NCBI GenBank assembly: GCA_016235875.1
Contig: JACRII010000080.1
Coordinates: 1-39,266 of the forward strand
DNA from: Planctomycetota bacterium
GTDB lineage: Bacteria > Planctomycetota > Brocadiia > Brocadiales > Brocadiaceae
Length of the DNA: 39,266 nucleotides
Direction of reading: 5' to 3'
Below, piece after piece: positions 23,867 to 28,055 of this stretch (positions are counted from its first letter, which is position 1; every line of letters starts with the position of its first letter). A program made the translations under genes and the position numbers. The notes below the pieces were generated by a model, which searched no databases, was not told where the DNA came from, and worked only from the letters and a program-made list of their open reading frames with translations.

Positions 23867-25255
23867 ATGGTCATTAATAAGAAAAAGGTATTCGTATTGG
23901 GACTGGACTCGATACCGCCCGAACTCCTATTTGATAGGTGGTTAGACCAGCTACCCAATATAAAATGCCTTGTTTCCAATAGTAGCTATGGTGCGATGAA
24001 GAGCACCATCCCGGCTATTACCTGCCCTGCATGGGTGTCCATGATGACCAGCGCCAATCCCGGCAGGCTAGGATTATATGGGTTTAGAAATCGGTCGAGT
24101 TACGACTATGAGGGATTGTCATTCGCAAATTCAAGCACCATTCGTCAGGATACTGTTTGGGATATTTTATCAAAAATAGGGAAGAAGGTTGTGGTGGTTG
24201 GCGTACCCATGACATACCCTCCAAAACCTGTCAATGGATGTATGGTAACGTGCTTTATGACGCCCGATACGAAGTGTGATTATACGTATCCACACGAGCT
24301 GAAAGCCGAGGTGGAGTCTGTTTCAAATGGTTATATCCTGGATGTCGAGGAGTTCCGGAGTGATAATAAAGACCCTATTTTAAAAACAATCTATGATATG
24401 ACAGAGAAACGGTTCCGGCTAACCAGACATTTTATTCGTTCCAAAGACTGGGATTTCTTTATGGTTGTAGAAATGGGGCCCGACAGGATTCACCATGCCT
24501 TTTGGAAATATTTTGACGAGGGTCATCCAAAATATATACCAGGTTCTCAATACCAGAATGCCATACTGAATTATTACAAATACCTTGACGAGGAAATTGG
24601 TGATACCCTCAAGCTTTTAAGTGATGATACATTGATTCTAGTTGTTTCCGATCACGGGGCAAAAAAAATGTTCGGAGGTATCTGCATTAATGAGTGGCTT
24701 ATCCAGAATGGTTACCTGAAGCTGGTACAATATCCGTCAGAGACAACGCAGTTCAATAAACTCATTGTCGACTGGGAAAATACGATGGTCTGGGGTGAGG
24801 GCGGATATTACGGCCGGATATTTATGAATGTAAAAGGTCGTGAACCCAAGGGAGTCATTGCACCGCAGCATTATGAGCATTTTCGGAACGAATTAATAAG
24901 GAAGCTGGAAGATTTACGGGATGAGAATGGCAGGAATATTAATACAAAGGTCTTTAAACCCGAAGATATTTACACGGAATGCAACGGCATACCGCCTGAT
25001 TTAATTGTATATTACGGCGATCTCTCTTGGCGGTCTATTGGGAGTGTGGGGAACAGGACTATCTGGGCAAGGGAGAACGACACCGGTTCCGATGATGCAA
25101 ACCACTCCCAGTACGGTATCTTTATTATGCGAAACGGCGGGAGTCAGTATGGAGTGCGGCGTGAAGGTGTTACTTTATACGATATTGCCCCGACGATATT
25201 GAACTATATGGGTGTTAAAGTACCAGAAGATATGGAAGGAAAGGCGCTTCTGTAG
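23867..25255 (+). CDS. Type I phosphodiesterase / alkaline phosphatase superfamily protein
   Basis: 462-residue hydrolase of the phosphodiesterase/nucleotide pyrophosphatase group (PF01663-like). The first metal Asp is in VFVLGLDSIPPEL (D14), the likely nucleophile Thr in PAITCPAWVSMMTS (T52), further metal ligands in MGPDRIHHAFWKYF and VVSDHGAKKMFGG, and a C-terminal His in DDANHSQYGIF. These give the expected two-metal site. It ends with TLYDIAPTILNYMGVKVPED, typical of the family. There is no signal peptide, so it should be cytosolic. Related enzymes act on nucleotide-sugars, phospholipids or phosphonates; the substrate is not readable. No clear Shine-Dalgarno precedes the ATG. Confidence 0.87.
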   Translation: MVINKKKVFVLGLDSIPPELLFDRWLDQLPNIKCLVSNSSYGAMKSTIPAITCPAWVSMMTSANPGRLGLYGFRNRSSYDYEGLSFANSSTIRQDTVWDILSKIGKKVVVVGVPMTYPPKPVNGCMVTCFMTPDTKCDYTYPHELKAEVESVSNGYILDVEEFRSDNKDPILKTIYDMTEKRFRLTRHFIRSKDWDFFMVVEMGPDRIHHAFWKYFDEGHPKYIPGSQYQNAILNYYKYLDEEIGDTLKLLSDDTLILVVSDHGAKKMFGGICINEWLIQNGYLKLVQYPSETTQFNKLIVDWENTMVWGEGGYYGRIFMNVKGREPKGVIAPQHYEHFRNELIRKLEDLRDENGRNINTKVFKPEDIYTECNGIPPDLIVYYGDLSWRSIGSVGNRTIWARENDTGSDDANHSQYGIFIMRNGGSQYGVRREGVTLYDIAPTILNYMGVKVPEDMEGKALL

Positions 25256-25384
25256 CTCCCACGTTTAGCATTTTACAAAAAACATTCTTGCAAAAGGCAG
25301 GTAGACATTGCCAAAACCTTCTTTCAAACCCTTTTTTAGTAATTTATTGCTTTTGACAGATGAGTTTTCACACATTAAAAAAAC

Positions 25385-25413
25385 TTGACATTGTTTTGCC
25401 AACTACTTACTAT
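25385..25413 (+). promoter_or_regulatory. Consensus promoter before the gene cassette
   Basis: TTGACA (25385-25390), a 17-base spacer and TACTAT (25408-25413). It lies about 90 bases before the cassette boundary, like a Pc promoter of an integron. TTGCC and GGCAA half-sites flank the -10 box and could be an operator. Confidence 0.7.
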
Positions 25414-25503
25414 ATCGGCAAGTTGTATACAAACTTTATTATATGCCCAAATGGACATATAATAGCCGTAAAGCAAGACGGCTTTTAGTACGCTTAATTC
25501 ATG
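25414..25503 (+). promoter_or_regulatory. Leader with three palindromes between promoter and cassette
   Basis: It contains the ten-base palindrome TTGTATACAA (25423-25432), an imperfect inverted repeat TATATG...CATATA (25440-25461), and a hairpin AGCCGT/ACGGCT (25464-25483) followed by TTTT. The segment ends at the G of GTTAGAC, the cassette boundary. It may be an attI-like or regulatory leader, or part of the old insertion target. Confidence 0.45.
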
Positions 25504-26789
25504 TTAGACCTCCGGTAAAAATTGAATGTTAGAGTATTATCAATCAGCGCTTATCTCTCTATTCGCAAGAGTTCAAGAGTTGAACTCCAATCCCACCGAT
25601 CTGGCTTTGTGCCTAAATATTCAAGAAAAACTGATTCAAAGAATTACCTACGTTGAGCGAAGAATCAGAACTCTCAAAGATGAAATTGCAAAGAGTAAGA
25701 AGCGACTTAAAACCACGCAGCCTGTTCGATTAAGTAAAATAGAATCAACGGGGACAAAAGAAGCCATTCAGTACAAGCACCACCTTCTTGATGAGTATCG
25801 GTTACTATTATCAATCCTCAACGCGGTTGGTGATGCTATCGTATTTACGTACATAGATAAATGGGATATCAAACCAATGGCCTTCAAAGAACCAGCGGGA
25901 TTCATATCTGGAAAGAAGGGGACCCGGCTTGAACGGCGAATATTTAGAGGAGCTTTTGGTTTAGGTCAAATTGCAATATTGAACGATCTGACAACCTGTC
26001 TGCGCTACGGGGATATAACTGTGCCGAGATTCGGCAAGGCTCTAATAATTGAGGTGAAGTCAAGCAAGAAACGCAATACCAACGACCGTACAGAAAGGCA
26101 AGAAATTGGGATGAACAAGATAGGCAATTATCTGGCTACTGACCGCACCGAGGGTCTATATGGCAAAGAAGGGGCATTCGTTCGCATTTCTTTTCAACGG
26201 GAAGAAAGGCATCACAGAGACAGATTAAATGTCATCCTGGCGGAAGCTCTAAAAAATGGATTTAGCTATGAAGAAGTTGAAGAGGGTCTACATTACTATG
26301 CGGCTACACGATTCGATGAGCTCTCGCTTAATGAGGTTGTTAAAAGATGCGATGGAAAGCCATTATTTCAATATGTCGATTTCATTGATAATACAGGCTA
26401 TTTCCCATTGACACTATCAATACGCGATCCGGCAGCACTCTATAAGTTCTATAGAGGCGGATTAACTCTCCTAGTTTTTATTAAACCTAAGACTATTGAA
26501 CAGAAGTGTAAAGACAAAGGCTTTACAGCAGAAATCCTCTTTGATGAGGAGTGGGCGATTAAACTTGTGAACCCTAAACTAATTCCGTATGACGACGGAG
26601 CAATAAGGATAGGAAGGCACATATTTGGCCGAATATTTGGCGAGTTTTTGAGCCTTGATTGGTTTCTGAATGAGATGATGGATAGATCAATAATTGATCA
26701 TTCAACTTTAGTTGGAGCAGAGACGGTCTAACAATCGCATCCAACGGCAAGTGAAAGCTGACGCTTTCACTTGCCGTTGATACTCAGCG
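25504..26789 (+). mobile_element. Integron-type gene cassette (one ORF plus attC)
   Basis: The segment begins TTAGAC right after a G (25503) and ends at the G (26789) of the GTTAGGC core. Joined as a circle, the end G plus TTAGAC would make GTTAGAC, the exact complement of the internal core GTCTAAC at 26726-26732. This self-complementarity is the hallmark of a true cassette. The ORF starts 22 bases inside the left end and its stop lies in the attC, as in standard cassettes. No intI is visible in the window. Confidence 0.8.
25526..26731 (+). CDS. PD-(D/E)XK nuclease-like protein carried by the cassette
   Basis: 401 residues, family not recognised. Residues 35-62 are highly charged and probably coiled coil (VERRIRTLKDEIAKSKKRLK). 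A PD-(D/E)XK-like active site is visible: G162-D163 (YGDITVP), then the hydrophobic strand ALIIEVKSSK with E176 and K178, twelve residues after the Asp, plus an upstream acidic helix around E136 (RLERRIF). The C-terminal half is mixed alpha/beta without a known motif and has no membrane segment. The stop TAA lies inside attC core GTCTAAC. No good Shine-Dalgarno precedes the ATG. A defence or DNA-processing role is inference from the nuclease motif and the cassette setting. Confidence 0.7.
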   Translation: MLEYYQSALISLFARVQELNSNPTDLALCLNIQEKLIQRITYVERRIRTLKDEIAKSKKRLKTTQPVRLSKIESTGTKEAIQYKHHLLDEYRLLLSILNAVGDAIVFTYIDKWDIKPMAFKEPAGFISGKKGTRLERRIFRGAFGLGQIAILNDLTTCLRYGDITVPRFGKALIIEVKSSKKRNTNDRTERQEIGMNKIGNYLATDRTEGLYGKEGAFVRISFQREERHHRDRLNVILAEALKNGFSYEEVEEGLHYYAATRFDELSLNEVVKRCDGKPLFQYVDFIDNTGYFPLTLSIRDPAALYKFYRGGLTLLVFIKPKTIEQKCKDKGFTAEILFDEEWAIKLVNPKLIPYDDGAIRIGRHIFGRIFGEFLSLDWFLNEMMDRSIIDHSTLVGAETV

Positions 26790-26795
26790 TTAGGC
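26726..26795 (+). other. attC recombination site (70 bp)
   Basis: R'' core GTCTAAC (26726-26732, fits RYYYAAC) and R' core GTTAGGC (26789-26795, fits GTTRRRY) enclose a perfect 17-bp stem: arm CAACGGCAAGTGAAAGC at 26742-26758, loop TGAC, and the inverse at 26763-26779. C26741 is unpaired, like an extrahelical base, before two further pairs. The flanks CAATCGCAT and ACTCAGC resemble the spacer parts of known attC sites. Confidence 0.82.
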
Positions 26796-26990
26796 ATAGC
26801 GCGGAGGTCATTAATAAGAGGAAGTCAATAGGGGTTGAAGTAATCAGGAGACACACTGTACCTTTAGAACAGGACGGGCTATACGATGTCAAACAACTGG
26901 CAACCGTTTGTTCAATGGAAGTGAAGGTGAAAGGTCAAAATGCACGGTGTCTGAAGATTCTACGACCACGAAGAACAATCTCTCAAATGT
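26796..26990 (+). other. Short stretch after attC, no recognised gene
   Basis: An open frame runs from inside the attC through this stretch to 27064, in part reading LEQDGLYDVKQLATVCSMEV. It has no proper start codon with a Shine-Dalgarno, runs into the end of the next gene on the other strand, and matches no family I know. It might be the remnant of the DNA into which the cassette inserted, or a decayed neighbouring cassette. Confidence 0.35.
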
Positions 26991-27605
26991 TTATTTTGTA
27001 CTTTTTTTGTTTGCGTATGCGACCTCAACTACCTTCTTCGTTTTTGTCGAAAATTTGGAGATGAGTTTATCCAGTTTGGGAATTATTACAGGGCTTGCCA
27101 CCTTTGCAAGGAATCCAAGAAAGACATTGTCGAATTTTAAGTGGACGGCAGTTTTTACCTCTTCAAAATATCCTTTTTCATCTTTATGCGTTGTGTAACT
27201 AATCTCTAATACAATAGTACCTGAAAAACTGAAGAACACCGTAGCATTGCCATGTCCCACATATATTACCTTGTGTGGCTGCCGTTCTATAAGCTCAAAC
27301 TCTCCTGTGACGTGTTTTGACGGCATCTGTATGCTGTACTTACCATCCCCTCGAACCTCAAGTATCAACTCTTTTCGGTTAAAATCTCTTCCATGCTTTG
27401 TAAGTTCTTCTACGTGTTCTATAAAGTATTCCAGTGTCTTTCTATCTGTGCGTACTGCAATAGGTTTCTGGACTCTGGTGAATGCGCTGGAATTGATAAT
27501 GGACTGTACATTATCTGAATCTGACAGAACGGTTTCGGGGTAGAGAGGTGCAAGCCAGGAGAAAGTGAAAAGACAGATGAATATGGCATTACGGAATAGA
27601 CGCAC
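26991..27605 (-). CDS. Exported protein of unknown function, possible SRPBCC-type fold
   Basis: From GTG 27605 the protein has 204 residues and starts MRLFRNAIFICLFTFSWLAP, a clear signal peptide. The open frame extends upstream to 27713, but that part is translated repeat DNA (27664-27775), so the later start is chosen; no strong Shine-Dalgarno supports it. The mature part contains KTLEYFIEHVEELTKHGRDF, then YSIQMPSKHVTGEFELIERQ and FFSFSGTIVLEISYTTHKDE. The last, with a long C-terminal helix, recalls START/SRPBCC lipid-binding proteins. That fold guess is weak. The ending is Lys-rich (KTKKVVEVAYANKKSTK). Confidence 0.65.
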   Translation of the reverse strand: MRLFRNAIFICLFTFSWLAPLYPETVLSDSDNVQSIINSSAFTRVQKPIAVRTDRKTLEYFIEHVEELTKHGRDFNRKELILEVRGDGKYSIQMPSKHVTGEFELIERQPHKVIYVGHGNATVFFSFSGTIVLEISYTTHKDEKGYFEEVKTAVHLKFDNVFLGFLAKVASPVIIPKLDKLISKFSTKTKKVVEVAYANKKSTK

Positions 27606-27663
27606 AGTGTAATTCTTGTATAGATTAGGATAAATTAGGCTGCCTGCGGCAGCGACTTTTAAG

Positions 27664-27775
27664 CTCCCCTCTAGAAAGAGGGGCTGGGGGTGTGTTGCGG
27701 CAAACTTACACACCCCTTTATCCTCTCTTTTTAGAGGGGAACCACAAAAGCTTGCCCTCGTGAAAACGGGGGATT
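27664..27775 (-). repeat. Composite inverted-repeat element, copy A
   Basis: Two hairpin-plus-tail units face each other: TCCCCTCTAGAAAGAGGGG with GGGGGTGTGT on the left, and ACACACCCC with a CCTCTCTTTTTAGAGGGGA hairpin on the right. Beyond the right unit lies CTTGCCCTCGTGAAAACGGG. Read on the - strand, the order (CCCCCGTTTTCACGAGGGCAAG, given as CCCCCGTTTTC then ACGAGGGCAAG, followed by two facing hairpins) matches the element at 28907-29070. Confidence 0.7.
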
Positions 27776-27904: not shown

Positions 27905-27939
27905 CTCATAAAGCAGTATTGCCGTAAATATTTAACCTC

Positions 27940-28013
27940 CCCTCGTTCCCCTCCTTCGCAAGGAGGGGACTTTGTCGTGAGCGCTCAGTCGAACGATGAG
28001 GGGGTGGTAAAAA
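27940..28013. repeat. GC-rich hairpin repeat with TCGTTCGACTGAG motif
   Basis: CCCCTCCTT and AAGGAGGGG form a hairpin (27950-27970) preceded by CCTCCCCTCGTT. Then follows GTCGTGAGCGCTCAGTCGAAC, nearly the same as the loop of the inverted repeat at 37226-37282. Confidence 0.65.
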
Positions 28014-28055
28014 ACTCTATAAAAAAAGTTTTTACACAGTAATATTATAAAGAGA

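Follow-up and report, generated by a model that had tools for sequence, protein, structure and literature searches.

A single integron gene cassette at a predicted attI relic in a Brocadiaceae genome

How does a single integron gene cassette come to lie between two conserved genes, with no integron integrase gene (intI) beside it? The question is raised by a 39,266-bp stretch of planctomycete DNA (contig JACRII010000080.1, hereafter the window), in which an earlier note, made from the letters alone, had described a solitary cassette, inserted at a secondary or relic attI site by an integrase acting in trans. The window's own genome is designated G000 (a MAG, 83.5% complete, 207 contigs); G001, G002 etc. 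are the other genomes of comparison, and L numbers denote the loci that were read. The best explanation as a whole, with a probability of roughly 0.87, is that the cassette was captured at the attI of an integron whose own intI was deleted, either earlier or later.

The cassette and its attC site

Positions 25504-26795 were confirmed as a real, canonical mobile integron gene cassette. By sequence inspection, its attC (26726-26795, forward strand) consists of R'' GTCTAAC (26726-26732), L boxes with an extrahelical C, a long stem and R' GTTAGGC (26789-26795). The stem has 16-17 pairs with one unpaired C; the DNA fold reaches -22.5 kcal/mol (z about -7 to -9 relative to shuffles, none of which equalled it on either strand). 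The left edge, G25503/TTAGAC (the slash marks the crossover), has the G/TT form and is perfectly complementary (7/7) to the R'' of the cassette itself. The 5' end TTAGAC and 22-nt leader (25504-25525, forward strand; same junction in L038 and L039) are followed by the ORF (25526-26731), the TAA stop of which (26729-26731) lies within R''. The 17-bp stem, TTAGAC boundary, 22-base leader and stop within attC described earlier are thus all present.

Two covariance models were used, both excluding the window's site: R1 was built from 21 other attC sites (13 from plasmid resistance-cassette arrays, 8 from relatives) and R2 from 78. The covariance-model check that the earlier note had proposed gave a clear match with R1 (34.1 bits, E 4.8e-6; next match in the window E 2.9), and each model found one attC in the window. 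In the R2 alignment, 156 cells were changed on both sides (62 expected) and 88.9% of cells were paired (25-41% in slid versions); these counts lean towards the structure, because the alignment was fitted to it. A heuristic attC finder missed the site with a narrower L-box offset and gave it the full consensus score once widened. The Rfam scan of the window at gathering thresholds returned tRNA alone, and blastn of the attC against plasmids returned no matches.

The same cassette was found in two other genomes, at 97.7% DNA identity in G044 and 98.9% in G002, compared with 67-70% and 92%, respectively, for the housekeeping gene typA. Identity with both begins within 2-3 bp of 25503/25504, and the G/TTAGAC edge recurs in three contexts. 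In G044, from a different family (RIFCSPLOWO2_12_FULL_40_19), the cassette stands in an array behind another cassette's attC, its own attC being cut off; in G002, of the window's genus (Ca. Brocadiaceae), it stands behind a different site, AAAGATAAAAATGAATG/TTAGAC, an attI lacking intI. Its presence in Planctomycetes and Ca. Brocadiaceae genomes bears out the planctomycete host suggested earlier. Sequence comparison shows that the cassette has moved horizontally, and recently.

Differences between the window and G044 copies are spread over codon positions (8, 8, 12); of the codons affected, 21 change non-synonymously and 7 synonymously. In G002, an in-frame TAA interrupts the gene (L039, about 5668). 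From this spread and this stop, selection on the cassette gene seems weak in at least some carriers.

The locus and the predicted attI

The left neighbour (23867-25255, forward strand), a conserved type I phosphodiesterase gene (Pfam PF01663, E 4.5e-47), marks the insertion locus; the right neighbour (26991-27713, reverse strand) is conserved and without a Pfam family. Homologues of the two are directly adjacent in G001 and G012, and no integron was found between orthologous flanking genes in any relative examined. The earlier note had called for a comparison with empty sites in related genomes: the sister genomes have both flanking genes with no integron between them, so its counter-case, of shared flanks with no empty-site alternative, does not apply. 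In G003 and G010, an APS-kinase-like (adenylylsulfate-kinase-like) gene occupies the spot of the relic integron (L056 2631-3453 and L031 432-1130, respectively).

The 92 bases after attC (26796-26887, forward strand) gave no match; the TTAGGC at 26796 may be what remains of a following cassette, or may belong to the old attI as its right side. A dispersed repeat (26888-26988; 94% identical to G006, also in G020 and G008) ends the species-specific insert on the right. Two further dispersed repeats were noticed beyond it: a MITE-like one of about 124 bp (27631-27754), which recurs many times (84-96%) here and in relatives, and one of about 80-120 bp (27932-28050), present in many relatives.

On the left, 25331-25503 (forward strand) aligned with 12 other copies in the order of an attI region, family A (attI-A), with the crossover after G25503. 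A consensus scan (10/12 matches) found within it a candidate promoter Pc, TTGACA-17-TACTAT (25385-25413, forward strand), aimed at the cassette and conserved across the aligned copies. Further left, 25289-25342 (reverse strand) is a 54-bp intI relic that covers about codons 229-246; it diverges from the cassette, the orientation of a canonical integron, and is fused directly to the promoter region. It is 89% identical to the interior of a frameshifted intI in G016 (L050 2451-2504; E 2.8e-12 against the whole G016 genome) and 85% identical over 47 bp to G046; tblastn placed it inside IntI, and a pairwise alignment was also made. The rest of intI is missing beside this attI. Several attI-A homologues lie between cassettes and intI or intI fragments: G055 keeps IntI residues 1-107, G025, G026 and G030 an N-terminal piece, G046 the C-terminal part and G016 a frameshifted whole intI; none of the surveyed copies adjoins an intact intI. 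The window's copy lacks about 32 bp that are found inside the region elsewhere.

By homology and promoter consensus, 25331-25503 is a genuine attI with its candidate Pc, the relic of an integron. This upholds the relic attI of the earlier note and rejects its alternative of a secondary site, given a left flank in which a conserved attI-promoter region is joined by a piece of intI. Activity of Pc is predicted, and the cassette, a single gene that is probably expressed, is immobile unless an integrase comes from elsewhere.

Sites lacking intI and the order of events

The cassette is solitary locally, as the earlier note had it; genome-wide it is not. In G000, R1 found 12 attC at E<=0.1 and R2 found 19 at E<0.01, on 15 contigs, for a total of about 19; R2 was trained partly on G000 sites and its E-values are rough. 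In nine sister-family genomes of the same order, a natural negative control, R1 gave no match at E<=0.01. The scattering is not a contig artefact, since the single-contig genome G026 has eight attC scattered over its chromosome.

G000 holds four kinds of attI without intI: A, the window's kind, and three others. attI-B, TAGAATAAAGATAAAAATGAATG/TT with a TTGACA/TAATAT promoter, occurs at nine places in G000 (reversed control, 0 matches) and is truly an attI, because it is that of the intact integrons in G026 and G020. attI-C, TTTATACAGnCTGTATAATCATnG/TT, stands behind the last 25-27 residues of an inverse-integron IntI; attI-D, CCGCATAnTATGCGGATCAATCTAATnAnTG/TT, has two copies. Among 76 distinct attI-B copies read, intact intI was present beside 2, a fragment beside 11 and no trace beside 63 (54 of which had at least 1 kb read upstream). 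Of the attI-B copies with TT, 34/69 continue as RRRY (5.3% background), and 9/11 attI-B cassettes that were checked open with six bases perfectly complementary to their own R''.

Tandem arrangements were also seen. On contig G000:C171 (L221, L097), the last 25-27 IntI residues occur twice around one cassette, with the attI-C palindrome after each, as a tandem of two relics. attI-B tandems, mostly about 0.9-1.1 kb apart (G000:C36 16232/17148; G001:C155; G032:C35; G018:C1; G056:C21), resemble attI-ORF-attI units and could hint at how attI copies spread. We rejected the idea that attI-B spread as a mobile unit whose left end is constant: the length over which unrelated copies are homologous varies (about 40-230 bp), a pattern better explained by former integrons in decay.

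In outline, an integron attI between the two conserved genes would have captured a mobile cassette with a predicted nuclease gene by integrase-mediated attI x attC recombination, and the integron's own intI would have been deleted before or after capture, leaving the 54-bp fragment, the cassette promoter and attI. The cassette would now be a probably expressed single gene, stuck unless an outside integrase acts, in one of many relic integrons of the genome. Since the exact locus with an intact intI was found in no relative, we infer the deletion from homologous attI regions at other loci; the order of deletion and capture is likewise a matter of inference. The intI fragment is short and the MAG fragmented, which limits this explanation.

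The chance that attI already lacked intI when the cassette arrived, and that an outside integrase (encoded on another replicon, by a different integron or by a copy since lost) acted in trans, is put a little short of even. In its favour are orthologous attI-B loci lacking intI, which have intI fragments in common and differ in their cassettes from species to species. At orthologous attI loci without intI, up to 1.5 kb of left flank is common up to the crossover G and sequences then diverge. At one locus, G028 and G004 have an intI fragment and upstream genes in common, each with an ORF and attC, the ORFs differing. At a second, 380 bp are 90% identical between G002 (with the window's cassette) and G012, and the two cassettes differ. 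At a third, a cvpA-like gene and the same last 25 IntI residues are followed by three different inserts in G000, G001 and G010; the right flank is also common to G000 and G001, with a clear attC in G000 alone. The fourth locus follows a guaB-like gene (named from its sequence). One toxin-antitoxin-like cassette occupies it in both G002 and G010 (95.7%; flank 81%); G003, G004 and G031 have other inserts there, and attC was looked for in these and not found.

Where the intI deletion is common and the cassettes are not, exchange followed loss of intI in cis; DNA conserved up to the crossover G with different cassettes beyond it points to an integrase acting in trans, and cassette exchange at these loci by such an integrase is the simplest reading of the alignments. 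The 98.9% identical cassette at another intI-less attI in G002 indicates recent movement and also favours trans action, as does the survey for integrases. No IntI scored above the family cut-off in the G000 assembly, in agreement with the earlier note's lack of a visible integrase, Xer-type and other tyrosine recombinases alone being found, although an intI elsewhere could be missing from a MAG of this completeness and contig number. Nor was an intact IntI over the cut-off found in the window's genus, including three assemblies at least 95% complete; its source of trans integrase may be transient, plasmid-borne, lost or missed by binning. Against trans action here, the window's locus was found in no relative, which leaves the order of events unreadable, and attI-A, with 32 bp deleted internally, may have lost some of its function. 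The earlier note's integrase in trans is therefore supported for other intI-less attI loci, including that of G002 with the same cassette, and not established for the window's insertion, because intI may have been deleted after capture.

As a separate observation, many contigs of G041 carry more than 20 near-identical 253-aa ORFs like tyrosine recombinases, weakly matching IntI residues 7-176, with the look of an expanded mobile element.

We would give even odds to an order-wide distributed integron system, in which many intI-less attI-promoter units at conserved chromosomal positions (downstream of guaB-like or cvpA-like genes, for example) would serve as long-lived landing pads, where single cassettes are taken up, expressed and exchanged via a trans integrase, instead of one intI-attI array. 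The window's site would then be one such pad, or a decaying one.

The other readings fare worse than capture at an attI that lost its intI. Insertion at a genomic site other than attI (attG), with an integron never present, is very improbable: attG sites that hold a single cassette are known (Loot et al., 2024, as cited in PMC11023631) and sister genomes lack an integron here, but the target is attI-like: over about 170 bp, the DNA to the left of the crossover is a conserved attI-promoter region that lies beside intI elsewhere, and an intI fragment is present too. Still less probable is a complete integron split by assembly with intI on another contig; the MAG is fragmented, but conserved genes flank the cassette on either side within a 39-kb contig, and where intI is expected, within about 200 bp of attI, a fragment alone is present. 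Stable stems after genes are common, but a chance inverted repeat or terminator behind an ordinary gene can be dismissed given the covariance-model score, both core boxes, the same edges in three genomes and strong covariation in the family model.

Known systems and cassette cargo

The usual explanation of a single orphan cassette is an attG insertion or the remnant of an array. Here their origin is directly readable, with attI, promoter and sometimes an intI fragment still present, and the natural feeding of remote docking sites by integrases becomes directly testable at orthologous attI loci that lack intI and differ in their cassettes. Through such loci a genome might distribute accessory genes over its chromosome one at a time, each driven by a promoter; here these genes are often nuclease-like or toxin-antitoxin. 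The host is related to ammonium-oxidising planctomycetes, and leftover docking sites occur throughout its genome and those of relatives.

With a single attC and no integron integrase nearby, the window cassette is a SALIN that is demonstrably a relic integron. SALINs, described in Shewanella, are defined by a single attC lacking an integron integrase (PMC9229058); the present one shares this arrangement and differs in its recognisable attI, promoter and intI fragment. CALINs, proposed degraded integrons without intI, have by default at least two attC (IntegronFinder 2.0, PMC9024848), whereas the window has one, not a cluster. In Xanthomonas chromosomal integrons, intI is inactivated by stops or large deletions at one ancestral locus beside ilvD, and arrays become stable after its loss (PMC12444791); there too attI and cassettes outlive a decayed intI, but in the present case each genome has numerous loci, of four kinds of attI, and cassettes changed once intI was gone. 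attG insertions (Loot et al., 2024, Nat Microbiol 9:228, as represented in the citing papers PMC11023631 and PMC12444791) likewise place cassettes outside integrons by a trans integrase, at sites that are not attI-like, unlike these conserved attI-promoter units. Treponema inverse integrons, which the intI tree groups with Ca. Kuenenia (PMC3607928), are intact; the attI-C relics also derive from integrons with intI pointing at the cassettes, but keep intI 3' ends alone. Delta-attI-type cassettes carry attI1/attI2 fragments at cassette ends as extra attI copies in arrays (PMC12901181); tandem attI arrangements occur here too, but whole promoter-attI units are dispersed over chromosomes. No published 'orphan' or 'solo' attI was found in the literature searched, an incomplete search. 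As far as searched, genome-wide intI-less attI pads with cassette turnover are new, and the window cassette is of the known SALIN kind.

The cassette ORF (P0001, 401 aa; 25526-26731, forward strand) encodes a predicted PD-(D/E)XK nuclease. Its motif E ... GD ... (I/L)IE(V/M)K is conserved in five divergent homologues, and homologues from Rhizobium, Klebsiella and relatives have the acid, GD and (I/L)IE(V/M)K residues of such nucleases; this conservation suggests nuclease activity. P0001 matches phrog_14906, of unknown function (E 1e-31), and no family at cut-off in Pfam, PADLOC or NCBIfam; no relatives were found in phages or viral contigs, and an AlphaFold model from two sequences had a pLDDT of 35. 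Other G000 cassettes encode a DpnII-MboI-like nuclease, DUF4365 and DUF4238, and a Phd antitoxin just below its cut-off; a defence role for such cargo is plausible. Among the loci read, L080 (CP125156.1) is a 5.37-Mb Klebsiella 'plasmid' record with seemingly chromosomal genes, and is probably mislabelled.
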